From an uncultured Sphingomonadaceae bacterium (GTDB taxonomy: Bacteria; Pseudomonadota; Alphaproteobacteria; Sphingomonadales; Sphingomonadaceae): DNA of 64,000 nt. Made by a program: the position numbers and the translations under genes. Each line of letters opens with the position of its first letter. Position 1 is the stretch's first letter. The notes under the pieces are model-generated. The model ran no database searches and was not told the DNA's origin. It worked only from the letters and a program-made list of their open reading frames with translations. Location of the stretch: contig CANLSQ010000001.1 in NCBI GenBank assembly GCA_947493955.1, positions 1,302,001 through 1,366,000 of the forward strand, written 5' to 3'. Below are positions 1 to 19,726 of the stretch, piece after piece.

Positions 1-1
1 T

Positions 2-2440
2 TTGATCGTGATCGCGCTAACCGTCACCTATTTCCTTGACGGGAATGCAGACCTGATGCTCGGCTTTCAACTGCACCTTTTAGGCAGCCTGGCGATCTTT
101 ATCGCTTATCGCTTAAAGCCTGGGCCAAGCAACAGTCGACGATTGGCGGGCTTGGTGGTTGACTTCGGTGTGTCGACCTATTTGTTTGAAATTGGCGGCG
201 GAGCAGTTGCTGCGCTCTATCCATTATATCTGTGGGTAATATTAGGCTATGGCTTCCGCTTTGGTATCAAATGGCTTGGCATTGCGGCTGCGCTAGGAAC
301 AATGTCATTCGGTTGGACTATATATTCCGTGCCCTACTGGCATCACAATTTATCCCTGTCTTTAGGCCTCTTGGGTGGTTTGATCGTCGTTCCTGCATAT
401 TGCTCGACCCTGATTATCAAAATATCCAAAGCAACCAAAGAAGCTGAAAGCGCAAATAAGGCGAAGAGCCTGTTTTTGGCAAGTATAAGCCACGAACTGC
501 GAACGCCGCTGAATGCCATTATCGGGTACGGCACACATTTGCTCGACATGAAACTGCCTGAAGCACAACAACAGATGGTCAGCACCAGCGTGTCCGCTGG
601 TCAACATCTGTTACATCTGATCAATCAGTTACTGACCTTTGCAAGATCGGATACTCAGGAAGAATTACCGGAACCAAAAGAGTTCAGTATCGTGGATGTC
701 ATGACAGATGTACGTGACATCTTGCAGTTGGCGGCGGCGGAAAAAGGTCTGAGAATTCATCTAGAAGCCGAAGCGCTGAGCGACCAAGCTGTTGCGGCGC
801 AGCTTGACCATATCCGCAATATCCTGATCAACCTGACCAGCAACGCCGTAAAGTTTACGGAAACAGGTACGATAACGTTAAAGTGCGGGATTGAAGATGA
901 TGTCTCTGAAGCTCCCGTATTGTGGTGCTCAGTCACTGACACCGGGCCGGGCATACCCGCCGAAGCGCATGAGAAAATATTCGGCGTTTTCCAACAAGCA
1001 GATGACAGTATTATTGATAACTTTGGCGGCACGGGTTTGGGCCTTGCTATCTGTAAACAACTGGCGATGCAGATGGGCGGCGATATTGCGTTGGAGAGTA
1101 CTGTCGGAAAGGGCAGCACGTTTACCCTTGCTTGCCCGGTTGAACCGGTCGTCGACGTCCAGGTTGTTCCCAATCCCGAAAGCTATCGAATATTGTCGCT
1201 GGGATTTGGTCTGAACGGACCGGACATTGAGCAAGAGGACGAAGGATCTGTTGTAATTGAGCATATTCAATGTGCTCCAAATGACCGTTTGGAATCAATC
1301 CTTAAAAACCGCCCACTCTCTTCATACGACATGGCTCTTCTCGATGAAGAAATCGCGGAACAACACAAAGATGACTCGATATTCTGGAATCACTTTCGCG
1401 AGGCCAAACTGCCACCTGTCCTACTCTCCAAAAGTGGCAGCAAGAGCCTGGACGAGATCAAACTGCGGGCCGCTTTCGCATCAGTATTACCGGCATCTGC
1501 AGACTTTGATACCGTGCGCAGCGTTGTTCAAATTGGTTGTTCTTTCAGTCGTATCGGCAAGAAATTGGAAGACAACCCTGACCGCATCATTCGAACATCT
1601 GCTTCGCTCAAGATATTGGTTGCTGATGATAATCGCACCAACCAGATGGTCTTGCAAACCATCCTTATTAATGCTGGCCATGAAGTAGTCGTTGTTTCTG
1701 ATGGCGAGCAAGCTCTTGATGAACTGGAGCAATATTCCTTCGACATCGTGTTTCTGGACGTCAATATGCCCAATATTGGTGGCATAGAATGCTGCAAGCT
1801 CTGGCGCCAGATAGAAGGTCCTCGTCATCATATCCCGATCATCGGCCTGACTGCCGATTCTACGTCGGAAACAGAGAAAAAATGCCTTGATGCCGGCATG
1901 GATTTACGGCTCACAAAACCAATAGAAGCAAGCGTTTTACTTGACACCGTTGCAGAACAGACAGGCAATTTCCATAAGGCAAATGAAGTGCAAGAATCGC
2001 TGCGTGATGATCCATTTAATGTAGTTCAAGTCATCGGATCAGAGTTGACAGATGACCCTCAACCACCAATTGACGCGGGGCAGATGGATTATTTGAAATC
2101 CATAGGCGACGAGGCGTTCGTTCAGTCAATCATAGATGCATATGTTGAAGACGCGTCGGACATTATGAGGGCCTTCAAAAAGTCGGTTGAAGACGGCAAG
2201 GTAGAAGATTTTCGTTTCCATGCTCACGCTTTTAAGAGCGGTGCCAACAATGTCGGCGCAAAAAAATTATCTCAAATCTGCAGCCACCTGGAAATCATAA
2301 CGGAATCAGAATTCACGCAAAAGCGATTTGAATATCTCGTACAAATCGAACAAGAAGTGTCACTCATCAAAGCTTTCTTGAACGATCCGGAAATGGCTGA
2401 AGACGGCAAGACCGATAATGGGTATAGTGCAGCAGGCTAA
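2..2440 (+). CDS. rpfC: RpfC-like hybrid sensor histidine kinase (5' end cut off)
   Basis: Inner-membrane hybrid kinase, probably the sensor for the diffusible signal factor made by the facing gene. The visible 812 residues start in hydrophobic sequence: several membrane helices to about residue 140, HisKA with H-box SISHELRTPLN (His164), an HATPase domain with N box near 282, G1 DTGPGIP (313-319) and G2 GGTGLGL (342-348), a linker at about 385-530 that looks like a degenerate receiver, a true receiver (ADDN 541-544, phospho-acceptor Asp586, Lys639), and a C-terminal Hpt domain with His742 in HAFKSG. This is the RpfC layout. The frame is open at the window edge with no convincing start, so the true N-terminus lies upstream. 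It ends 8 bp from rpfF, facing it. No RpfG-type HD-GYP partner is visible. Domain calls are firm; the RpfC name rests on architecture plus neighbour. Confidence 0.82.
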   Translation: MIVIALTVTYFLDGNADLMLGFQLHLLGSLAIFIAYRLKPGPSNSRRLAGLVVDFGVSTYLFEIGGGAVAALYPLYLWVILGYGFRFGIKWLGIAAALGTMSFGWTIYSVPYWHHNLSLSLGLLGGLIVVPAYCSTLIIKISKATKEAESANKAKSLFLASISHELRTPLNAIIGYGTHLLDMKLPEAQQQMVSTSVSAGQHLLHLINQLLTFARSDTQEELPEPKEFSIVDVMTDVRDILQLAAAEKGLRIHLEAEALSDQAVAAQLDHIRNILINLTSNAVKFTETGTITLKCGIEDDVSEAPVLWCSVTDTGPGIPAEAHEKIFGVFQQADDSIIDNFGGTGLGLAICKQLAMQMGGDIALESTVGKGSTFTLACPVEPVVDVQVVPNPESYRILSLGFGLNGPDIEQEDEGSVVIEHIQCAPNDRLESILKNRPLSSYDMALLDEEIAEQHKDDSIFWNHFREAKLPPVLLSKSGSKSLDEIKLRAAFASVLPASADFDTVRSVVQIGCSFSRIGKKLEDNPDRIIRTSASLKILVADDNRTNQMVLQTILINAGHEVVVVSDGEQALDELEQYSFDIVFLDVNMPNIGGIECCKLWRQIEGPRHHIPIIGLTADSTSETEKKCLDAGMDLRLTKPIEASVLLDTVAEQTGNFHKANEVQESLRDDPFNVVQVIGSELTDDPQPPIDAGQMDYLKSIGDEAFVQSIIDAYVEDASDIMRAFKKSVEDGKVEDFRFHAHAFKSGANNVGAKKLSQICSHLEIITESEFTQKRFEYLVQIEQEVSLIKAFLNDPEMAEDGKTDNGYSAAG

Positions 2441-2448
2441 GCTTGTAG

Positions 2449-3402
2449 CTAAACAGTCTTGAGCGAGCGGGCAATTCGACGCTCTTGCGCATTTGCAAGG
2501 CGTTCCATTTTTCTTACATCGACCTCATCAAGGTAAAGTGCCGTTTCTGCCCACATCTCTGTAATTTCGAGCAATTCATCGATCGTTACGGGATTGGCGA
2601 GGCGACGCGCTTTGTAGACAGCACGTTCAGCGTGGAACCGCTTCCGGTTTTGCTTGGTATATTCAATAATGGCTTGCTCGCCCTTACCGTCCTCCGCGAG
2701 GATATCAATCACGCCCATCTCATAGAGCTGTTCGGCGGTGAATAATTTTCCTTCGAGAATGAACTGTTCTGTCTCTTTGCGGCCGAGACGCTGACGCAGA
2801 TAACTGTAGGCACCCATACCGGGGAAGAGATTGAATAAAATTTCGGGCAGGCCCAGCCTTGCACTTCTCTCGGCCACCAGAATGTCAAAAGCCAAAGCAT
2901 GCTCAAAACCGCCGCCCAACGCATCACCCTGCACCAAAGCCATGGTAATGATCGGGGCGCCAAAACCTGTGCTGTTCGCATATTGCATATGCACGCAGGT
3001 ACGGGCGTATTTCTTTAAAGCACCCAAGTCGCGACGCCGAATACAGTCCGCAAAATGTTTCAGGTCGCCGCCGAGATTGTAAATGCCAGGGGTACGCGAT
3101 CCACAAACAAAATAGCGCATTGGGTCCTCGGTATGGGTTCCATCCATGGCATAATTTGTATGAATCCAGTCTTGGACCATCTGGATTTCATCGCCCAATT
3201 CATATGTGTAGCTGGGGCGAGATTTCTGGTTCATATAGCACCAGAAAATTTCATCCGTTTTGTCGAACCGCAAATCAATTTCATTGAAGTTCTGTTTGAA
3301 TATATCGTAGCCAAGACCACGGTGCGGTGTGATCAGTGTTTCTGTCGCGTCGAATACGAGATCAGTCTCAGCATCGTTTACGGCTTGGCTTCGTAAATCC
3401 AT
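2449..3402 (-). CDS. rpfF: RpfF-like DSF synthase (crotonase family)
   Basis: Crotonase-fold enzyme expected to make cis-2-unsaturated fatty acid signals (DSF family) from acyl-ACP/CoA by thioesterase and dehydratase steps. Family hallmarks are all present: NLGGDL, VQGDALGGGFEHAL and GLPEILFNLFPGMGAYS. The two glutamates matching the catalytic pair of Xanthomonas RpfF (Glu141/Glu161) are Glu167 and Glu187 counted from the start used here, with the same 20-residue spacing. The N-terminus is roughly 25-30 residues longer than in Xanthomonas. The ATG at 3402 is preferred because GGAGAG lies 7 nt upstream; ATG 3408 and GTG 3417 are alternatives. It converges on the rpfC-like kinase, an arrangement also known from Xanthomonas. 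A generic enoyl-CoA hydratase is the alternative, but the GGGFE and LFNLFPGMGA blocks argue for RpfF. Confidence 0.85.
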   Translation of the reverse strand: MDLRSQAVNDAETDLVFDATETLITPHRGLGYDIFKQNFNEIDLRFDKTDEIFWCYMNQKSRPSYTYELGDEIQMVQDWIHTNYAMDGTHTEDPMRYFVCGSRTPGIYNLGGDLKHFADCIRRRDLGALKKYARTCVHMQYANSTGFGAPIITMALVQGDALGGGFEHALAFDILVAERSARLGLPEILFNLFPGMGAYSYLRQRLGRKETEQFILEGKLFTAEQLYEMGVIDILAEDGKGEQAIIEYTKQNRKRFHAERAVYKARRLANPVTIDELLEITEMWAETALYLDEVDVRKMERLANAQERRIARSLKTV

Positions 3403-4764: not shown

Positions 4765-5694
4765 TTAATGTTTTGCAAGAAATGCCCGGTGTACGGCAGC
4801 AGTCTCTTTGGGTTTTTCGATCATCGGAATATGGCCGGTCTCCTCGAAAATAACGGCTTCACTATCCTTGATACCTGCATCCAGCACCGCAACACAGCTA
4901 ACATCAATCAACCGATCATGGCGCCCCCAGATAATCAGGCTAGGCGCCGCTACCTCGCCGAGGCGATCATTGAGAGGATGATTGATACCGGCACCGGCAA
5001 TTTGCCAGAATATTTTGTCGAGAACTTCTCTATGGGCTTCGGCCTCTGCAAAGAATATTTTCTTGAAGTTCTTTGGCATCGGCACTGGTTTATAAGAAAC
5101 GAAAGCCATAAGCCGATCAACATCGGAGACGTCGCTCAGCGCCAGGGAATTTTCTCCCTTTTCCGCCGCAATTGCCAATTCGCTCTTCACGTCGCCCATG
5201 ACGCCAGCATTGTTAAACAAGGTCAATGATGCAACTTTATCCGGATATTCCATTGCAAATTGCAAAGCGATAAATCCGCCCATGCTATTGCCGCCGATAT
5301 GACATTTGGGGACATTGATAGCGTCCAGAAACGCACTCAGTCGATGGACCTGCGAGAGGATATCATAGTCACGATCCAGAGATCGGTTGTTCTCACCAAA
5401 GCCTGGCAGGTCCGGTGCAATCAAACGATGATCCTTGGTGATATGCGGTGCGTAGATTGACCAGTTATCCTTGTCACCACCAAAACCATGCAACAAAACG
5501 AGTGGCACACCCTCCCCTCGTCCACCTTCCAGATACGGCCAGGCATTGTCACCGACTTTGACGGATTTTTGCCGCATTCCTCCCCGAAAGCGCAGCGAAG
5601 CTGTCATGAGATCATAAAGCGCCTTCGGAAACACGAAATAGGCGACCAGTACAGCCAATATTATGGCGCATAAAATATATAGAATGATCATCAT
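4765..5694 (-). CDS. alpha/beta hydrolase with N-terminal membrane anchor
   Basis: A 309-residue alpha/beta-hydrolase-fold protein. Residues 1-22 form one hydrophobic helix, probably a membrane anchor. The oxyanion block LLHGFGGDKDNW is at 68-78, the nucleophile elbow GGNSMGG places Ser137, an acid is likely in WGRHDRLI near 265, and the histidine is in TGHIPMIEKP near the C-terminus. The triad is intact, so it is probably an esterase, lipase or haloperoxidase-like hydrolase; the substrate cannot be read from sequence. The location between a monoacylglycerol-lipase-like gene and gpsA suggests a lipid ester substrate. It lies 31 bp downstream of that lipase and is probably co-transcribed. Confidence 0.82.
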   Translation of the reverse strand: MMIILYILCAIILAVLVAYFVFPKALYDLMTASLRFRGGMRQKSVKVGDNAWPYLEGGRGEGVPLVLLHGFGGDKDNWSIYAPHITKDHRLIAPDLPGFGENNRSLDRDYDILSQVHRLSAFLDAINVPKCHIGGNSMGGFIALQFAMEYPDKVASLTLFNNAGVMGDVKSELAIAAEKGENSLALSDVSDVDRLMAFVSYKPVPMPKNFKKIFFAEAEAHREVLDKIFWQIAGAGINHPLNDRLGEVAAPSLIIWGRHDRLIDVSCVAVLDAGIKDSEAVIFEETGHIPMIEKPKETAAVHRAFLAKH

Positions 5695-5725
5695 TGCGAA
5701 ATTCCCCCGTTCGCACTTCTGGTCG

Positions 5726-6580
5726 CTATTTTGTCAATATGCGATCCATCCAGTCAGTCATATCCGTCAGCACCGCATCTTTTTCCGGTTCATTAAAAAT
5801 CTCGTGAAAAAGTTCCGGATAGATCTTCAACATTTTTTCGCCGGAGCCAATATTCTCATTGAGAAACACCGACCCTTCCGGCGCTGTTAGGCTGTCTTTT
5901 CCGCCGTGCAGCAGCAATATCGGTAATGTTATTTTGGCGGCGTGGCTTTGCACCAATTCCATATTGGTCATCATTTCGGCTGCCAGCCGGGCACTGATCT
6001 TGGTACCGGACACCAACGGATCGGCCAAATAATCCGCGACAACCTTCGGATCGCGGCTAACTCCATTGGCATCCAATGCCAAAACGCCCATTGTGGGCGC
6101 CAGTTTTGAGAGAAGTTTACTGAGCCCTTTCATGACTGCAGAAGGCTCTTCCGTCGCTTTAATCGCAGGACCAGACAACACAGCTGCCGTGAAACGAGAC
6201 GGATTTTTGAGCAGGTAGGTCGCACCAATTAAACCGCCCAAACTATGTCCGACCAATATCAGTGGTAGCCCTTTTTGTTCCGCAGGCAATTGTTTGATCA
6301 GGCTATCCAAACCATCATGATAAACTGAAAAGTCAGGGACGAAACCATTTGCTCCGTCTGACCTTCCATGCCCCCAATGATCAAGGGTTTGAACGGCAAA
6401 TCCGTGTTTAGTGCAATGATCCGCAAAATATCCGTATCGCCCGCTATGTTCATCATAGCCATGAACCAATATAATGACCGCTTTCGCAGCAGTTTCCGGC
6501 GTCCAGCTTTGGCAATAAAGCGATGCGCCCGCCGCTGCAGAGGACTCGGCCAGCGTCAATTTGCCTTCGTCATGCCTCAA
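5726..6580 (-). CDS. monoacylglycerol lipase / lysophospholipase-like serine hydrolase
   Basis: 284-residue hydrolase of the Hydrolase_4 (monoglyceride lipase) group. It has the HG block VHGYDEHSGRY (39-49), DHWGHGRSDG (67-76) and the nucleophile elbow GHSLGG (Ser113), then a later LHGGKDSLT acid site and LFHEIFNEPE with the histidine. The family typically cleaves monoacylglycerol or lysophospholipid. The start is a TTG at 6580 inside a TTGA overlap with the upstream patatin gene; a strong GAGGAAG sits about 6-7 nt before it, so translational coupling is likely. With the patatin-like lipase it would give a two-step breakdown of acylglycerols. The exact substrate is inference. Confidence 0.85.
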   Translation of the reverse strand: MRHDEGKLTLAESSAAAGASLYCQSWTPETAAKAVIILVHGYDEHSGRYGYFADHCTKHGFAVQTLDHWGHGRSDGANGFVPDFSVYHDGLDSLIKQLPAEQKGLPLILVGHSLGGLIGATYLLKNPSRFTAAVLSGPAIKATEEPSAVMKGLSKLLSKLAPTMGVLALDANGVSRDPKVVADYLADPLVSGTKISARLAAEMMTNMELVQSHAAKITLPILLLHGGKDSLTAPEGSVFLNENIGSGEKMLKIYPELFHEIFNEPEKDAVLTDMTDWMDRILTK

Positions 6581-8055
6581 GCGATCTTCCTCTTCATCGC
6601 AACCACATGATCATGAGCCAGTTCGTTTTCATATTCGAACAATATACGATCCAGCGTCTGGCTGATTTTTGTCTGAGTCCGCACCATTTCAATTTTCGGC
6701 CAGGTCGTCCGCTCGCCAAGTTGTATCAGTTCACTAATTTCTTCCACCGACAAATCGCTTAGTATTTTAGCCGGACTCCAGAACATCGTCGGCCGGATGA
6801 TGTTGATATCGCCGGTATAGTCCTGATTAATGACGGATAGCGTCATATTGGCCATACTGTTCAAACGCGGAAAATAGGATAGCGGCTTCTGCATAATTTC
6901 GACATTGGCGTTGAGCCAAGCCTTCATCGTCGAAGTCGTTGCGTTCCGGATCGCGGAAATCGGAGTCCTCTGCTGCTTCACATCAGTCGCAAAGGGCGTG
7001 ATTAGCGGATTTGCTTGACTGACAATATGGTGATTAACCCCATAAAGCCGGCCCAACCGTTTTGCCGGCAAGTCATGGGTTACAGAACCGTCAACCCATT
7101 TGCGATTGGGAAGATAAGGTTTACGTTCCCCTTTGTGATCCTTGGCTGCCAATGTCACAGGAGGATAAACGCCCGGTACGGCGCAAGAAGCCATAACCGC
7201 TTCCCGTATATAGACATTGGGTGACGCAATAGCGTTCAAAAGGCGTGATGTTTGGTGCTTTTCCGCTGGAGCGATCGAAACATTCAAATGTCGCCCGGTC
7301 AGTTCATAAGCCTCCTGAAACGTCAGATCCGGGATCATATTGCTGATACGCTCTCGGATCTCATCTATTTTCAGGCGCCTTGTGCCACCGAATATGCTCA
7401 ACCCGGTCTGCGAGGCTATTTCATCACTGCCTTCAGTGACTAGGTTTTCGGGTTCAAAAAATGGGGGAATCTCATGATCCACATGCGTGCTAATCAAAGC
7501 GCCAACGATAGAACCGCCACTGGAACCCGACATGATGTGCGGCAATAGCCCTTCCGACCACAAAGCTTTCACCACGCCCATATGGAAATACAGAAAGGCG
7601 CCTGAGCCGCTCATTAAAAAGGCAGAGCGACCGTAGCAATGTTGCGCCCGACGAAAGAAATCGAGTTTCTCTTCAAAGGGAATATCATCAACCTTGTCAC
7701 TCGCCAGATATTCCAGCGAATTGACAATGGCATCCACATAATCCTGGATCAGCTGCTTGGTACCAAATTTGGCTTTTTGGTGCAGGCGGTCATTGCCCAT
7801 ACCATCCATATTGCCGTGGATACCTTCATTCAGTGCATAAAGCAGGCCCGCATTATCCTGGGCTTTCCAAAGCTTTGACAGGCGTTTCAAACGTCTGCGA
7901 ATAGAGGCATTATCAAAATGCTTGCTATCGTCAGAGGCCTTCCACTTGTCGACACCAGTGGAGCGATCGTGGGCGGCTGCGGCATCAGACCAGTCGGAAT
8001 AATTTTCCGCTTGGGCCATCGCCTTTTCCATCTTCAAAGTTGTATTCAAAATCAT
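6577..8055 (-). CDS. patatin-like phospholipase / triacylglycerol lipase with DUF3336 region
   Basis: 492-residue patatin-family acyl hydrolase. An N-terminal helical DUF3336-like region (about 50-140) precedes the patatin core, a layout shared with yeast Tgl3/4/5 and plant SDP1 triacylglycerol lipases. The core shows a GSGAFLYFHMGV glycine-rich oxyanion segment (150-161), the GSSGG elbow with Ser179, and the catalytic Asp in KWVDGSVTHDLP. A storage-lipid lipase is therefore likely. Starts at 8055, 8031 and 8019 are all possible; the last gives a protein beginning MAQAENYSDW. It overlaps the following hydrolase by 4 bp and lies 86 bp after the wax ester synthase gene. Confidence 0.85.
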   Translation of the reverse strand: MILNTTLKMEKAMAQAENYSDWSDAAAAHDRSTGVDKWKASDDSKHFDNASIRRRLKRLSKLWKAQDNAGLLYALNEGIHGNMDGMGNDRLHQKAKFGTKQLIQDYVDAIVNSLEYLASDKVDDIPFEEKLDFFRRAQHCYGRSAFLMSGSGAFLYFHMGVVKALWSEGLLPHIMSGSSGGSIVGALISTHVDHEIPPFFEPENLVTEGSDEIASQTGLSIFGGTRRLKIDEIRERISNMIPDLTFQEAYELTGRHLNVSIAPAEKHQTSRLLNAIASPNVYIREAVMASCAVPGVYPPVTLAAKDHKGERKPYLPNRKWVDGSVTHDLPAKRLGRLYGVNHHIVSQANPLITPFATDVKQQRTPISAIRNATTSTMKAWLNANVEIMQKPLSYFPRLNSMANMTLSVINQDYTGDINIIRPTMFWSPAKILSDLSVEEISELIQLGERTTWPKIEMVRTQTKISQTLDRILFEYENELAHDHVVAMKRKIA

Positions 8056-8106
8056 AATTTACTCGCTTACTGTCAGACCGAATACACGCATTGCTGAGGA
8101 AAAACA

Positions 8107-8118
8107 CCCGTTAACGGG
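8107..8118. repeat. perfect 12-base palindrome between patatin and DGAT genes
   Basis: CCCGTTAACGGG is a perfect palindrome in the 86-base gap between the wax ester synthase and patatin genes. Read on the minus strand it is followed by TGTTTTT, so it could be a small hairpin giving partial termination after the acyltransferase gene, or a dimeric regulator site before the lipase gene. The 4-bp GC stem is too short for a confident terminator. Confidence 0.3.
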
Positions 8119-8141
8119 AAAATTAGGTAGTTATCCACTAC

Positions 8142-9680
8142 TTATTTGGCCTTATTCTTTGGTGCTCGTCTCGGCGTCTTGGATACCCGGCGATACATGA
8201 CCGAAGCATCTTTGGGTTGCGGTGCCTTTTTGGCGGGCGTGGTCCTTGCCTTCCGTCTGCCCGCCGCTGGCTTTGCATCCCTAAGTTGGACAAAGGCGGC
8301 CTCAATGCATTCGCGGAAAAATTCAATGTCAGGCATGATTTTTCTGTCGGTTGTAACCGCAAAGGACATCGTTCCATTGTAGCTGGGTGTCGCGATAAAC
8401 AAGCCCATTCCATTACCAAGCGGCGCCATGCCATATTGATGCGTAAGTTTCGCACCATTCATATACATCGGCATTTGCGGTCCCGGCACATTGGAAATGA
8501 AGACGTTGCTCATCTTGGGAGCGAAACGCTCACTGGTCAGGATCTTAGCAACGCCAGCCATAGTCGCACCGGGAATATGCTGGGTAAGGTCCGTCATGAT
8601 CCGTGCACTCAAACCAGATTTGGCGGCTTTCGTTTCCCTTGTCGTATTGCGCACTGCTTCCAGTCGTTCCAGCGGATTGGCAATATTGGTCCACAGATTG
8701 ACTGTCATCGCGGTAATCTTGTTACCGGGTGTATTTTCCTGACCATCCCGCTTTCGTGCATTGACCGGGGCTACACCCACCAGCGTTTCTTTTGGCAGTT
8801 CCTTATGTTTCATCAGATATTTACGCAGTGCGCCGCTACAAATGGTCAGTACGACATCGTTAATTGTCGCACCCTCCACTTTGGTCCGCATCGCCTTTAG
8901 CTCGTTCAAATCGAAACTGACAGCATCGAACATTTTGTGCGGTGAAACTGCACCGTTGAACCGGGTCTCGGGAACAGTGAGTCCACCCACTCCCCCATCA
9001 CTGGAAATGTTTTTCTGCGCTGCATCCCAAAGGGTAGGAGTTAGCTTTAATACAGCGTTGGCCAGCTTAACGGGTGACGACAGATTGCTGGAAAGGGCAC
9101 GGTTCATGACATCCGACGAAGACGGCACATCACCATAGTCCCAATCGGAAGACGGCACCTCTATCGCCGGTGTGCCCTTGGTATCCATGTCGCTGAGCGC
9201 GGTAAAAAAATAAGCAGCCGAGGCACCGTCAATCGCGGCATGATGCACCCGTGTCAAAATTGCATAGCTACCCTTGCCATAGCCTTTGACCCGATCGAGC
9301 CCTTCCACGACATACATATCCCACAAGGGTCGATTCATATCCATCGGCTTGCTAAAATGGCGAGCCACATGAATGCAAAACTGCCGCCAATCGCCTGGCT
9401 CCGGCAATCGACCATGGGAAATATGCGCTTCGATATCGAAATGCTGGTCTTCTACCCAATAGGGATGATCAATATCAAAAGGCAGCCGGTAAAGCTTACG
9501 TTTGAATACCGGGGATATATGAAGCCGACTGCGGACATGATCGATAATGTCCTTAAATCGCACCTTTTTAGTAGGCGCAGTCGATGGATCATAGACGTAG
9601 ACCGCCATAACATGAGTCAAATTTTCCGGTGTCTGGATATAAAGGAACTGGGCGTCTTGGGCACTAAGCTGATGCAACAT
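8142..9680 (-). CDS. wax ester synthase / diacylglycerol acyltransferase (WS/DGAT)
   Basis: 512-residue bifunctional acyltransferase of the bacterial WS/DGAT family, which transfers acyl groups from acyl-CoA to fatty alcohols or diacylglycerol to make wax esters or triacylglycerol. The catalytic HHxxxDG motif is intact (HHAAIDG, 146-152), and the N-terminal LSAQDAQFLYIQTPENLTHV and the later NVFISNVPGP block are typical. Residues about 467-512 form a Lys/Arg/Ala/Pro-rich tail not expected in the family core. The ATG at 9680 has GAGGAA at good spacing. It lies 26 bp downstream of plsB, pointing to one operon. Whether it prefers alcohols or diacylglycerol cannot be read; no fatty acyl reductase is in the window, so triacylglycerol is the simpler guess. 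Confidence 0.92.
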   Translation of the reverse strand: MLHQLSAQDAQFLYIQTPENLTHVMAVYVYDPSTAPTKKVRFKDIIDHVRSRLHISPVFKRKLYRLPFDIDHPYWVEDQHFDIEAHISHGRLPEPGDWRQFCIHVARHFSKPMDMNRPLWDMYVVEGLDRVKGYGKGSYAILTRVHHAAIDGASAAYFFTALSDMDTKGTPAIEVPSSDWDYGDVPSSSDVMNRALSSNLSSPVKLANAVLKLTPTLWDAAQKNISSDGGVGGLTVPETRFNGAVSPHKMFDAVSFDLNELKAMRTKVEGATINDVVLTICSGALRKYLMKHKELPKETLVGVAPVNARKRDGQENTPGNKITAMTVNLWTNIANPLERLEAVRNTTRETKAAKSGLSARIMTDLTQHIPGATMAGVAKILTSERFAPKMSNVFISNVPGPQMPMYMNGAKLTHQYGMAPLGNGMGLFIATPSYNGTMSFAVTTDRKIMPDIEFFRECIEAAFVQLRDAKPAAGRRKARTTPAKKAPQPKDASVMYRRVSKTPRRAPKNKAK

Positions 9681-9706
9681 ATATCGTTCCTCTAAACCTA
9701 AATATC

Positions 9707-12052
9707 TTAGTCAAAAATCTTGTCAGCCAGGCTAAGCACCTCAAGCCTCGATTTTTCCATTCGGCGCGACAATGCTCGGAATTTGCGGAGCAAAGCCTTT
9801 CGTTTCGCTATGGTTTCTTCGGTTGTTTCGCCGGTTAAATCCTGACTGGCAGCCATCTTAAAGCCATTTTCAAACAGAATCTTGCCAATGGACGCTTCGC
9901 TGGTGATGCGCCGCAGCAAATATGCCTGCCGCCCCTCTTTCAGAGCCTCTTCGACACAATGCTTCTTGTCAATGACCTGCCCTGGCTCCAACCGGGACAA
10001 TATATCCAGCACTACCGTGTAAGATTCCACGAATGGCAAGAACACTGCGTGACCAATAAGCGGTTGAAACCGGTTCGTCAGACTCTTGAGCATAACGCCG
10101 CCCTGATCGAGCTTCATCTGCCAATCCGGGCAAGCACGGGTCAATTCTGCTTTGAGGTTTTCGCGATATTCGTCCTTCGGTGGATAGAAAAACTCAAACT
10201 TAAACAGGTCTCGTAACCTGTCTGTTTCATCCCAAAAAACATCCGCAGCAACTTTATCCTTATCTTCCCTAGCCTTAAGCAAAGACATTTCGATAATTGC
10301 CTTGTCCAAGAAATGATGGACGATTGAATTGCGATAATAGCTTGCCAGTGGATGTTTTTCGGGCTGGATAGCGTAGACAGTACTCGATCCCTGATCGTAG
10401 CGCACAAACAGGCCACTATTAACCAAGGTATCGACAACCCTTTGAATGCCTTCCAGATTTTGCCTGGTCAGATCATCGCTGAACCGAATATTGCGTTCCT
10501 GCGCCCATTCCACGAAGAAGTTAATCACAGCGCGCAATTCATCGGCCGTCATAGCGCGGGGCGCAGTACCCAGCAGACTGAGGCACATGAGTGAAGTCAG
10601 CGTTAGAGGCGTGGCCCGGTTGGCCTCCACTGCCACTTCAAAGGCAATTTTGGATAACCCAATACGATCATCAGGCTCCGGGGCATTGCCAACAACAACC
10701 GGCTTGCCAAAATCCACATAGACCTTGCCCATAGGTTCTCGCAGGCTACGTAGATAACCCACGAACCAGCTCAGCGACTCTGCCTTTTTGACCCGCCCTG
10801 TTTGCTCGGTCGCATATTCCTCGACATCACGAATCAAGTCGAAACTAGTCACGACCGGGATGATATGGACATTTTCAATGTCATTCAGATTGGCGCTATC
10901 CATGACATATTTGAGCAAGCCGTAGCGTGGCGGCATCAGCTTTCCGAGCCGTGAGCGCGTACCTTCAAAAGCCCAGGTCATCGGGAAGCGCTTTTCCAAT
11001 AAATAGCTGACATAGTGGCGGAGGACGAGCTTGTAGACCGGGTTATTTTCGAAGCTGCGGCGAATAAAAATCGTGCCCGCGCGTCGCAAGACAAACCCGA
11101 GCCCAAAGAAATCAAGATTAATCCCACCAAAAACATGCACCATCGGCAAGTCATTTTGGTACGCTAGATCAGTGGGCGTCACGCCATCAATATAGGTTTT
11201 GTGTGTGAAGAGCAGCAAGGTGGGATGGTCGCGCATCGTCTTGCGCAGGCGCGCAAGCTCATTTTTGTCAAACACGATTTCATCTTCATAGCCCTGCGAC
11301 AGCATGAAGCGATCCAGCCGGGCCTTCATATCGATGAAAAACGCGCTGGGCCGGGCTATCAGCTCCTTCATATATTTGCCGGCCTCTTCGTAAAGAGCCG
11401 ATTCCGGCTTATCCAGGTCGGTGGCGAGCTCTGTCATCGCTGCACGAAACTTTGAGCTGGTGCGCAATCCATCAGCCACAAACCGGGGTACTTTATACCG
11501 TCGCCCTCGAAGGCCGCGTTCTTCTATGTCGAGAACCAAACCAGCCTGACGCGCCACAAATCCGGCAAACTCATTCTCATCGTCGCCCTCGGCATGCAGC
11601 GCATTTTGATGTTCAAATCGCTCTCGTAATTCGCCGATAGTGGCCGGTTGCCCAGTCAAGCAATGGGCGCGGCGCTTGTTGCGAACCAGTATCATGCGAG
11701 CCCGAAAGCTCCCGGGCGTCCGGGGATCGCCAAAAAGAGCATGCCGTTTTTTGAGAGCCCGGCTCTTCTCGAAATTCGGTATGCGCCAGGCAATACGGAC
11801 CGGTATCACCATTGTATCAGGATCAGCATCCAGTTTTCGGCCCAACTCCTTCAACCGCAATCGGGCGCGCTCATCGGATATTGGAAGGCTGACCCAGTTT
11901 ATCTCCCGGTCCGGACCGCCTTCAGCCAGCGACGTATGAAGCCAATCCAGCAGATGACGTCGCTCCACCCGGTTACGGGCATCAATGACAAATAGTTTGG
12001 GCCCCTGTGTGAGTAGAGGTACCGCCTTTGCTATTGCCTTCGATTCATCCAT
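9707..12052 (-). CDS. plsB: glycerol-3-phosphate 1-O-acyltransferase (PlsB type)
   Basis: 781-residue membrane-associated acyltransferase catalysing the first acylation of glycerol-3-phosphate. Motif I HKTYID gives His284 and Asp289, the GGINLDFFGLGFVLRRAGTIFIRR segment (309-332) carries the substrate-binding arginines, and FEGTRSR (362-368) is motif III. Length and C-terminal region match PlsB rather than the shorter PlsY or PlsC enzymes. The ATG at 12052 follows GGGAG. Only 9 bp separate it from the upstream HAD-PlsC gene. Many alphaproteobacteria make phosphatidate by PlsX/PlsY, so a PlsB beside PlsC and WS/DGAT suggests a dedicated storage-lipid route; mycobacteria have the same combination. 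Confidence 0.93.
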   Translation of the reverse strand: MDESKAIAKAVPLLTQGPKLFVIDARNRVERRHLLDWLHTSLAEGGPDREINWVSLPISDERARLRLKELGRKLDADPDTMVIPVRIAWRIPNFEKSRALKKRHALFGDPRTPGSFRARMILVRNKRRAHCLTGQPATIGELRERFEHQNALHAEGDDENEFAGFVARQAGLVLDIEERGLRGRRYKVPRFVADGLRTSSKFRAAMTELATDLDKPESALYEEAGKYMKELIARPSAFFIDMKARLDRFMLSQGYEDEIVFDKNELARLRKTMRDHPTLLLFTHKTYIDGVTPTDLAYQNDLPMVHVFGGINLDFFGLGFVLRRAGTIFIRRSFENNPVYKLVLRHYVSYLLEKRFPMTWAFEGTRSRLGKLMPPRYGLLKYVMDSANLNDIENVHIIPVVTSFDLIRDVEEYATEQTGRVKKAESLSWFVGYLRSLREPMGKVYVDFGKPVVVGNAPEPDDRIGLSKIAFEVAVEANRATPLTLTSLMCLSLLGTAPRAMTADELRAVINFFVEWAQERNIRFSDDLTRQNLEGIQRVVDTLVNSGLFVRYDQGSSTVYAIQPEKHPLASYYRNSIVHHFLDKAIIEMSLLKAREDKDKVAADVFWDETDRLRDLFKFEFFYPPKDEYRENLKAELTRACPDWQMKLDQGGVMLKSLTNRFQPLIGHAVFLPFVESYTVVLDILSRLEPGQVIDKKHCVEEALKEGRQAYLLRRITSEASIGKILFENGFKMAASQDLTGETTEETIAKRKALLRKFRALSRRMEKSRLEVLSLADKIFD

Positions 12053-12061
12053 TCCGGCTCC

Positions 12062-13849
12062 CTATTTTTTCGTTTTTATCGGCTTTTTGGCGGGTGACTT
12101 TTTGGGCGCAGGTTTTCTCGCTGATGTGCCGCCGGCCGCTGCTTTTTTAACAGATGGCTTTTTGACCACAGGCTTGCGCGTTGCAGATTTCGGTGCTGTT
12201 TTTCTAGCAGCAGGTCGAGGAGTTGCTTTTGCGGCAGTCGCTGTTTTTCCGACCGTCGGCTTTCGGGTCGACCCAACCTTCTTCGCAGCCGAAGCCGCTT
12301 TCTTGGGAACAGCCTTTGCTTTTGACTTGCCGCGACCAACCGCCTTTGCAGTGGATGTTCGCTTCGACGCTGTCTTGACGGGTGCGGCCTTCGTTTTGAC
12401 GGGCGCGTGCACGGGTTCCTCATCCTCTTGCCCCAAGGCCTCCAGGAACATGCCTCGTACCTCGGCAACATGAGCATCAAGCGTTGATTTTTTCCACTTG
12501 TTGGTGTCGACTGGCGGCAAAATATCGACTTTCACCGTGGCCGGTCGCATCACAAATTCATTTTTGGGAGCCACATCGCCAGCATTGTGGATAACAATCG
12601 GAACCATAGGGACACCAGCTTGCATCGCCAGATGGAAAGCACCTTTCTTGAATGGCCCCACTTTCGGCGACAATGTCCGGGTCCCTTCGGGTGCAATACA
12701 AATTGATTTACCGTCAATTTTGATCGCATCAATCAATGGCTCCATCGCTTTGATCGCATTGCGACCATCGGCCCGGTCCACAAACACGGTTCCGGCCATT
12801 TCCATGACCTTGCCGATAATTGGCGTATCCTTCACCTCTTTCTTGGCAATGCCGCCAACATCTTTACGTACCAGCTTTGCCATGATCATCACATCGGCTT
12901 TGCTCTGGTGGTTAAAGACAAAGATGCACGGCCGATTGACCCAGAGATTTTCTTCGCCAGTGATATCCAGTTCCACGCCGGTAAGTGCCGTGGCGATGTC
13001 ACCAAATAATCCGGTCGAAAAGTTGGTCGCCTCCCGCTGAGATCCGGTTAAGGCCCAAATCGGCAATCCAGCAACAAAAGACGTAACTAGCGAACCTGTG
13101 GCATATATCGTTCTGAGATAATCAACCGGCTTGCCTTGCCCGCGGCTGTCAAATTTCTGCAGAGGCCAACCACGTTCCTTGGAAATTTCAGTAAGCTTGC
13201 CGTTGGGATTCAACGGCCGTGGTTTACCGACCCGCTCCAACAACTCCAGATCATCATCACTATCTGAATAGAAATAACTCTTGCCCAAATCCAGCTTGTG
13301 CTCTTTCGCAAGCCTTTCCGCAGCGATGACCTTGCCCTCACCAAAACAAAGTGGGCGAACTATATTCCCGGTAAATTCTCCATTTTCGACTTCATATTGC
13401 GAGCACAAGACATGCTCGATATTCAGATCCCGCGCGGTGGGTTCAATCTGGTAAATGGTAGCCGACGAAACGATCGCAACAGTATGACCCTTCGCAATAT
13501 GCGCTTCAATAAGTTCACGGGATTCCGGGTAAACTTTGCGCGCGATATGTTTTTCATAGAGCTCTTCGCCAAACTCGAAATAGCTGTCCTCGGTTACGCC
13601 TTTCATGAATTTCGAGGCAGCTGACATCAAACCTGAAAAGCCCATGCTTCCCATGCTGTATTGGGCCATTACATTAGCAGTTTCGACCAGCTCTTCCGCA
13701 GTCATCTCCCGGCGCTTGATCTTTTCCCATAACATGGCTGTGGCAGAGTAGCCGGCGATAATTGTGCCATCAAAATCAAACAGCGCACCAATATGCGGTC
13801 CGTCAGGCGCCTTTAGCACGTCCTGCAAATGGGAATCCCGATCAGCCAT
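12062..13849 (-). CDS. HAD-IB phosphatase / PlsC acyltransferase fusion with histone-like tail
   Basis: Two-domain lipid enzyme. The N-terminal HAD-IB (SerB-like) phosphatase has motif I FDFDGTI, SSAT as motif II and YFYSDSDDDLELL as motif III (about 25-210). The second domain is a 1-acylglycerol-3-phosphate acyltransferase with NHQSKAD (HX4D) and PEGTR, about 290-480. After that come roughly 119 residues almost wholly of Lys, Ala, Pro, Thr, Ser and Arg, like histone H1 tails. The acyltransferase should convert lysophosphatidate to phosphatidate; the HAD part might remove a phosphate from a lipid phosphate, which is inference. The ATG at 13849 is chosen over GTG 13876 because GAGGG stands about 6 nt before it. 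It is the first gene of the lipid run, 9 bp before plsB. Confidence 0.9.
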   Translation of the reverse strand: MADRDSHLQDVLKAPDGPHIGALFDFDGTIIAGYSATAMLWEKIKRREMTAEELVETANVMAQYSMGSMGFSGLMSAASKFMKGVTEDSYFEFGEELYEKHIARKVYPESRELIEAHIAKGHTVAIVSSATIYQIEPTARDLNIEHVLCSQYEVENGEFTGNIVRPLCFGEGKVIAAERLAKEHKLDLGKSYFYSDSDDDLELLERVGKPRPLNPNGKLTEISKERGWPLQKFDSRGQGKPVDYLRTIYATGSLVTSFVAGLPIWALTGSQREATNFSTGLFGDIATALTGVELDITGEENLWVNRPCIFVFNHQSKADVMIMAKLVRKDVGGIAKKEVKDTPIIGKVMEMAGTVFVDRADGRNAIKAMEPLIDAIKIDGKSICIAPEGTRTLSPKVGPFKKGAFHLAMQAGVPMVPIVIHNAGDVAPKNEFVMRPATVKVDILPPVDTNKWKKSTLDAHVAEVRGMFLEALGQEDEEPVHAPVKTKAAPVKTASKRTSTAKAVGRGKSKAKAVPKKAASAAKKVGSTRKPTVGKTATAAKATPRPAARKTAPKSATRKPVVKKPSVKKAAAGGTSARKPAPKKSPAKKPIKTKK

Positions 13850-13903
13850 ATTAACCCTCAAATAATCCAGACCCACCCGGCCTTAAATCATCCTGCCAAA
13901 AAA

Positions 13904-16404: not shown

Positions 16405-19722
<3,318 letters not shown>

Positions 19723-19726
<4 letters not shown>

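Follow-up and report, generated by a model that had tools for sequence, protein, structure and literature searches.

The 64,000-nucleotide window analysed here (positions 1,302,001 to 1,366,000 of contig CANLSQ010000001.1, from an uncultured Sphingomonadaceae bacterium) opens with two convergent genes that resemble rpfC and rpfF, the sensor kinase and synthase genes of diffusible signal factor (DSF) systems. The open reading frame of the kinase extends from base 2 of the window to a stop at 2440 on the plus strand, and the rpfF frame occupies 3417 to 2449 on the minus strand, with an ATG nine bases past a GGAG. DNA upstream of the window was taken from the same genome (3.4 Mb in 8 contigs, with a completeness estimate of 100 %), in which the kinase gene starts with the ATG at window position -142 (143 bases before base 1; L002:13858) and encodes a protein of 860 amino acids. 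Four bases before this start ends the gene of a putative effector with receiver (REC), PAS, GGDEF and EAL domains, which probably shares one transcript with rpfC. The order effector > rpfC > < rpfF is the same as that of rpfG > rpfC > < rpfF, with the effector gene in the rpfG slot (Table 1). The sequence-only reading of this DNA had proposed an RpfF/RpfC synthase-sensor pair with 8 bp between the convergent stops. The spacing is as stated, and sequence, fold, tree and synteny bear out the pair. The rpfG that was considered upstream of rpfC is not there, and the REC-PAS-GGDEF-EAL gene in its place had not been foreseen.

Table 1 Features of the putative rpf locus (window positions unless a contig position is given)
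Feature	Position	Strand	Remarks
REC-PAS-GGDEF-EAL effector gene	G000:C1:1299697-1301853 (window -2303 to -147)	+	718 amino acids; outside window
rpfC-type hybrid kinase gene	1..2440 in window; G000:C1:1301858-1304440	+	Transmembrane input, HisKA, HATPase, REC, Hpt
HisKA of RpfC	461..655	+	Residues 202-266; Pfam
HATPase_c of RpfC	806..1144	+	Residues 317-429; Pfam
Receiver of RpfC	1613..1951	+	Residues 586-698; Pfam Response_reg; solved relatives include the RpfC receiver 3m6m
Hpt of RpfC	2129..2296	+	Residues 758-813; Pfam
Gap between both stop codons	2441..2448		8 bases
rpfF, DSF-synthase-type crotonase gene	2449..3402	-	317 amino acids from ATG 3402
rpfF, alternative start GTG	3417	-	322 amino acids
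rpfF, catalytic codons	E172, 2904-2902; E192, 2844-2842	-	Numbered from GTG 3417

Judged by its sequence, the rpfF product is a member of the DSF-synthase family. Pfam ECH_1 was matched, and the two catalytic glutamates, E172 and E192, lie 20 residues apart, the Xanthomonas spacing that had been recognised at first reading; both were invariant in alignments of seven (7/7) and twelve (12/12) rows. The catalytic glutamates of Xanthomonas RpfF are E141 and E161. M201, W289 and L307 were also invariant across the seven rows; by an offset of 31 they correspond to Xanthomonas M170, W258 and L276. The best solved matches by sequence were RpfF/DfsA. An AlphaFold prediction from a 12-row alignment had a mean predicted local distance difference test (pLDDT) score of 81.5, and a Foldseek search with this model returned DfsA/RpfF chains at ranks 1-12 (E values of 2e-24 to 1e-21), followed by ordinary enoyl-CoA hydratases (2.5e-14), with Pseudomonas DspI at rank 41. 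The broader crotonase model NF006452 scored 350.3 bits, above its cut-off of 177. Residue 56, counted from the GTG, aligns to position 25 of the 288-position RpfF model of NCBI, and the N-terminus is longer than this model by 31 residues (GTG start) or 26 residues (ATG start). The long N-terminus that had been called unusual is thus real but looks unimportant: it is probably disordered, because residues 1-30 of the predicted structure have a pLDDT below 50.

A careful tree of 121 RpfF rows was made after exclusion of L216_ECH and removal of 32 rows, 12 from the same genus and 20 hand-chosen others, including the long rows L194 and L197. The four crotonases of the own genome, all on long branches, separated from RpfF at 100/99, in line with the sequence-only reading, and the candidate assignment of RpfF as an ordinary enoyl-CoA hydratase was rejected by this tree together with the fold search. 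One hundred RpfF rows, nearly all labelled Alphaproteobacteria, grouped at 99/91 with the nine RpfG-linked RpfFs outside; exceptions in the labels were L071 (Burkholderiales), L074 (Terriglobia), L077 (Mycobacterium) and some rows labelled only Proteobacteria. The window RpfF sits in a 10-row clade (100/98) alongside Sphingorhabdus and Novosphingopyxis. Of the suggested 'transfer or under-described clade', the 100-row group favours the clade, and recent transfer from Xanthomonas is unsupported because RpfF sits in a mostly alphaproteobacterial group; recent transfer from the Xanthomonadaceae was rejected on the same ground. Exchange among alphaproteobacteria is possible.

In RpfC, the HisKA, HATPase_c, Response_reg and Hpt domains all scored above their Pfam cut-offs, and hydropathy revealed four or five hydrophobic stretches N-terminal of HisKA, so that the domain set originally described, membrane helices included, was recovered. 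One profile finds the transmembrane input region both in the window RpfC and in RpfG-linked RpfC. By descent, as judged from its sequence, the kinase belongs to the RpfC family, an assignment that makes no claim on DSF sensing. In a quick tree of 83 RpfC rows (12 same-genus rows, L070, L119, L130 and L175 dropped), 43 proteins of the GGDEF-EAL type stood opposite 25 of the kinase and HD-GYP types with a support of 99.9. L196 and L180, named after exceptions had appeared, were excluded from the clade tests on RpfF and RpfC. L196 has a GGDEF-EAL effector, yet its RpfC carries the Gln of the sensor motif and its RpfF lies among those of the kinase types; it may represent a separate exchange.

PMC5391125 reports that RpfC of X. 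campestris needs Arg15, Asp17, Ser18, Glu19 and Gln22 to sense DSF. A corresponding motif, R-x-D-S-E-H-x-Q, is clear in RpfG-linked (Gln in 9/9) and kinase-linked RpfC (Gln in 17/18). Among the 41 GGDEF-EAL-linked RpfCs outside the window genus, Arg occurs in 29, Asp in 32 and Glu in 40, the Ser18 column holds Ser (17), Thr (10) or Gly (9), and the Gln22 column holds Met (27), Ile (8), Leu (4), Thr (1) or Gln (1). The 17 RpfCs of the genus keep Asp (15/17) and Glu (17/17); all have Arg in the Ser18 column, and the Gln22 column is Met in 16 and Ile in one. None has Arg in the Arg15 column, but in 16 of the 17 an Arg follows one place later, which makes this column dependent on the alignment. 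In the genus, His makes up 21 % of the 40 residues preceding the motif (3 to 14 His), as compared to about 1-2 % in 82 other RpfCs, bearing in mind that RpfC start codons are unproven and that some of these residues are perhaps untranslated in certain rows. Together, the sequences indicate that the sensor segment of RpfC has been rebuilt in the window genus.

Pfam assigns to the effector a receiver (residues 5-115), followed by PAS, GGDEF and EAL domains. The acidic pair (9, 10) and the phosphorylatable Asp (55) are kept in all 58 effector receivers of the GGDEF-EAL type and in all 20 of the kinase type. The GGDEF sequence is exact in 53 of the 58 effectors, and EALxRW is found in all of them. 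The window effector lacks the Arg of an RxxD inhibitory site. An active phosphodiesterase would be the safer guess for the output. No REC-HD-GYP protein (RpfG) was found in the genome: the single protein matched by PF13487, which is also one of the five HD proteins matched by PF01966, contains no receiver match out of the 26 in the genome, of which 25 exceed the cut-off.

In an unrooted, quick tree of 108 receivers over 116 columns, 74 effector receivers (45 GGDEF-EAL, 20 kinase and 9 HD-GYP) split with 99.6 % support from 34 others, namely 23 receivers of the genome and 11 hand-picked RpfC receivers; copies from the genus had been cut to four and the double receiver of L129 excluded. The mean identity of the GGDEF-EAL-type receivers was 0.53 to the kinase type, 0.40 to RpfG and 0.24 to other receivers. 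This grouping and these identities point to one receiver lineage with three outputs, in which the identity of the receiver was kept while the output was exchanged.

RpfF was present at 75-100 % identity in 29 of 31 same-genus genomes; one of these 29 (G002) has a stop codon within the match. In 12-kb stretches around 16 genus loci, hand-picked from the 29, all 16 retained REC-PAS-GGDEF-EAL > rpfC > < rpfF plus gpsA. The arrangement is therefore not a matter of chance. Relative to L039, dN/dS was 0.035 for rpfF, 0.069 for rpfC and 0.020 for the effector gene; all other pairs were saturated or nearly so and gave no usable estimate.

Among the best 80 of 410 RpfF relatives in a scan of named genomes, ranked by similarity to an alignment headed by the window RpfF, most were from Alphaproteobacteria, including Ancylobacter, Roseomonas, Inquilinus, Skermanella, Microvirga, Stappia, Sphingobium and Sphingomonas. 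These 80, plus loci added from elsewhere and less the duplicates L055, L164 and L165, made up a tally of 97 loci with class labels assigned by hand; later counts and trees drop L058-L060, L177 and L185 as well. The tally contains 71 alphaproteobacterial loci, 39 of which combine RpfC with a REC-PAS-GGDEF-EAL protein, all of them (39/39) convergent with rpfF. A further five have RpfC with a REC-PAS-kinase and eight have RpfC with neither effector recognised or with the locus cut; RpfC is lacking in the remaining 19, nine beside a GGDEF-EAL protein and ten without one. None of the 71 has REC-HD-GYP, which was confined to nine other loci of the 97. Even draws, each with the own genome included, sampled 385 genomes of the class, 24 of which had RpfF (E<=1e-50), and 246 genomes of the order, 43 of which had it; the distribution of RpfF is thus patchy in Alphaproteobacteria, yet not exotic. 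At the 24 loci of the class draw (from 23 genomes besides the own), a REC-PAS-kinase accompanied RpfC in 15, and RpfC was not recognised in eight, some of them at contig ends. The view of GGDEF-EAL as the main alphaproteobacterial partner was corrected by this prevalence of the kinase output (15/24). Sixteen loci of the order draw (L198-L213, hand-picked from 43) comprised two with GGDEF-EAL and RpfC, five with GGDEF-EAL without RpfC, two with a fusion of RpfF and an iron-redox domain next to a REC-PAS-kinase, and seven with none of these. The arrangement in the window is one of several, common near its own clade and rarer class-wide.

Two core routes lead from DSF to cyclic di-GMP according to PMC4504480: a kinase with RpfG, or the one-piece receptor RpfR. 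Compared with Xanthomonas RpfF/RpfC/RpfG as presented there, the window locus is alike in RpfF family and fold, the RpfC domain chain, the convergent layout, an effector gene upstream of rpfC, the receiver lineage and, as far as can be inferred, an output that turns over cyclic di-GMP. It differs in that HD-GYP is swapped for PAS-GGDEF-EAL, the receiver Lys is Ser, three of five sensor residues are changed, the genus has a His-rich tail and no rpfG was found. The RpfF/RpfR system of Burkholderia and others, in the same source, also has an RpfF homologue and a PAS-GGDEF-EAL protein encoded beside rpfF; there, however, one protein without receiver or kinase acts as receptor, whereas in the window locus a membrane kinase and a receiver are interposed. 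Alphaproteobacterial REC-PAS-kinase loci share with the window locus an RpfF, an RpfC, the REC-PAS module (at 36-38 % identity for L055 and L054) and the change of Lys to Ser/Thr (20/20 there), but differ by a HisKA-HATPase output and by an RpfC that keeps Gln at the Gln22 position in 17/18. The loci of the window type thus resemble a third DSF route, with the kinase and receiver of the first and the PAS-GGDEF-EAL output of the second. Such natural variants, with three outputs and two sensor motifs, could be useful for receiver re-wiring and for finding signal-specificity residues. Neither a DSF system in an alphaproteobacterium nor a REC-PAS-GGDEF-EAL partner of RpfC was described among the matches listed in a search of open-access titles and abstract openings; subscription journals were outside its scope, and it is no proof of novelty.

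With a probability of roughly two in three, the locus encodes an alphaproteobacterial form of Rpf-type signalling by a fatty acid, with a REC-PAS-GGDEF-EAL protein in the rpfG slot. The parts, layout, conservation and descent of such a system are evident from the comparisons above, and from them we infer the product of RpfF, the ligand of RpfC, the phosphotransfer and the direction of change in cyclic di-GMP. RpfF would convert 3-hydroxyacyl-acyl carrier protein to a cis-2-enoic acid that acts on the RpfC segment preceding the first membrane helix. Phosphate would then be relayed through HisKA, REC and Hpt of RpfC to the effector receiver, and the EAL domain, perhaps with GGDEF too, would alter cyclic di-GMP, replacing hydrolysis by the HD-GYP domain of RpfG. 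The effector PAS domain could be a second input.

Several observations weigh against this interpretation. The usual receiver Lys is absent from all 78 REC-PAS effectors (Ser in 75, Thr in 3); the 78 include 17 near copies belonging to the window genus. At the same position, seven of nine RpfG receivers have Lys and two have Arg, 98 of 98 RpfC receivers have Lys, and the effector is the only Lys-less receiver among the 26 matches in the genome, the other 25 having Lys. Because the conserved Lys is missing, the usual phosphorylation switch is in doubt; no direct literature match for Lys-less receivers was among the matches listed. Three of the five DSF-sensing residues (Arg15, Ser18 and Gln22) are altered in all 17 RpfCs of the genus. 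The loss of residues required by Xanthomonas RpfC makes DSF itself less sure as the ligand than the sequence-only reading implied; RpfC-family descent is not weakened by it. The window RpfF scores 218.7 bits against the 550-bit cut-off of the NCBI RpfF equivalog, a naming rule rather than a biological feature; this cut-off is reached in 3 of 398 Pseudomonadota genomes, and the RpfFs of the full rpfG-rpfC-rpfF clusters L160-L162 also miss it (356-370 bits). Of the two genus genomes without a close RpfF, one (G009) is rated 100 % complete; the other (G022) is 73 % complete. GGDEF-EAL is a rare partner, found with RpfC at one of the 24 loci of the even class draw, and the GGDEF-EAL types do not form one clade in the best RpfF tree, although a single clade was not rejected (p 0.452).

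RpfF might instead be a metabolic crotonase or thioesterase that serves the adjacent lipid genes (gpsA, acyltransferases, wax ester/triacylglycerol (TAG) synthase), with a kinase that senses something unrelated. We consider this rather unlikely: RpfC lies near RpfF in 52 of 71 alphaproteobacterial loci, mostly picked by likeness to the window RpfF, and beside it in 16 of 24 loci of the even class draw, and tree and fold place RpfF among DSF synthases. It has in its favour that gpsA adjoins rpfF in 16/16 genus loci, that the next genes of the window are of lipid type (wax ester/TAG synthase, glycerol-3-phosphate acyltransferase), that the RpfC sensor motif is altered in the genus and that RpfF relatives occur without RpfC in other sphingomonads. 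A canonical Xanthomonas Rpf system, recently transferred and with its rpfG elsewhere in the genome, would explain the identical convergent layout and the full set of RpfC domains, and is nevertheless very improbable, the only HD-GYP match in the genome sharing no gene with a receiver match and RpfF being nested among rows of its own genus and other alphaproteobacteria. An rpfG elsewhere in the genome is refuted as far as the assembly goes (8 contigs, estimated at 100 % completeness).

It is also improbable that the effector acts mainly as an RpfR-like cytoplasmic receptor, its PAS domain binding the fatty acid and its Lys-less receiver merely docking to RpfC or RpfF. The best PAS model is PAS_4, and in PMC4504480 the DSF-binding PAS of Xanthomonas RpfS is a PAS_4 and RpfR is a PAS-GGDEF-EAL protein, which, with the missing Lys, would suit a receptor of this kind. 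PAS_4 is, however, a broad family; comparison with solved structures gave only weak, generic PAS matches, neither RpfR nor RpfS among them, and the phosphorylatable Asp and acidic pair persist in 58/58 GGDEF-EAL effectors. Beyond the Rpf-type system as set out above, the loci could form a third basic form of DSF-like signalling across Alphaproteobacteria, in which one receiver lineage drives three outputs (HD-GYP, GGDEF-EAL and histidine kinase) by non-standard, Lys-less switching, and in which the RpfC sensor of the genus, with its His-rich, possibly metal-binding tail and its lost Arg15/Ser18/Gln22, was rebuilt for a different fatty acid or for a fatty acid plus a metal. This broader proposal is tentative.

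In other families of the order, RpfF carries a C-terminal fusion to a heme-oxygenase-like domain, the iron-containing redox domain PF14518. The fusions, in L054 (7820-9886), L107 (on the contig of L055:7519-9411), L203 and L204, stand beside a REC-PAS-kinase; they were recognised by Pfam in L054 and L055 and by a profile of our own in the other loci. In L132, from an Inquilinus sp., the domain is encoded by a separate gene adjoining rpfF, and in the own genome no PF14518 domain was found. The domain may modify the fatty-acid signal. Between rpfC and the effector gene, the Inquilinus-type loci L068, L070 and L077 have one or two additional short genes that encode the RpfC input region plus HisKA only. 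They are reminiscent of rpfH, described in PMC4504480 as a gene resembling the RpfC input domain.

Many sphingomonads have an RpfF relative without RpfC (L056, L057, L171, L174, L199-L202, L210, L211 and L213). By eye, its neighbours in L056 and L057 are presumably an asparagine synthase, an exosortase and a glycosyltransferase. Elsewhere RpfF lies beside a GGDEF-EAL protein without RpfC (L114, L118, L120, L133, L135, L136, L206-L208 and L212), in Sphingobium, Sphingomonas and other genomes of the same family. The proteins of L114, L118 and L120 have N-terminal parts of ~230-285 residues without a Pfam match and are possibly another one-piece receptor. In a genome of another class, a MerR-PAS-GGDEF-EAL protein is encoded directly after rpfF (L167:9270-11222).

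A PHROGs search gave no matches. Beside rpfF and gpsA, the window (4765-13876) encodes alpha/beta hydrolases, a wax ester/TAG synthase, a glycerol-3-phosphate acyltransferase and a HAD-phosphatase/acyltransferase. The protein at 6577-8055 has no NCBIfam match and looks patatin-like by eye. A serine hydrolase encoded at 18380-19726 shows a weak match to class A beta-lactamases (48 bits, with a cut-off of 200).

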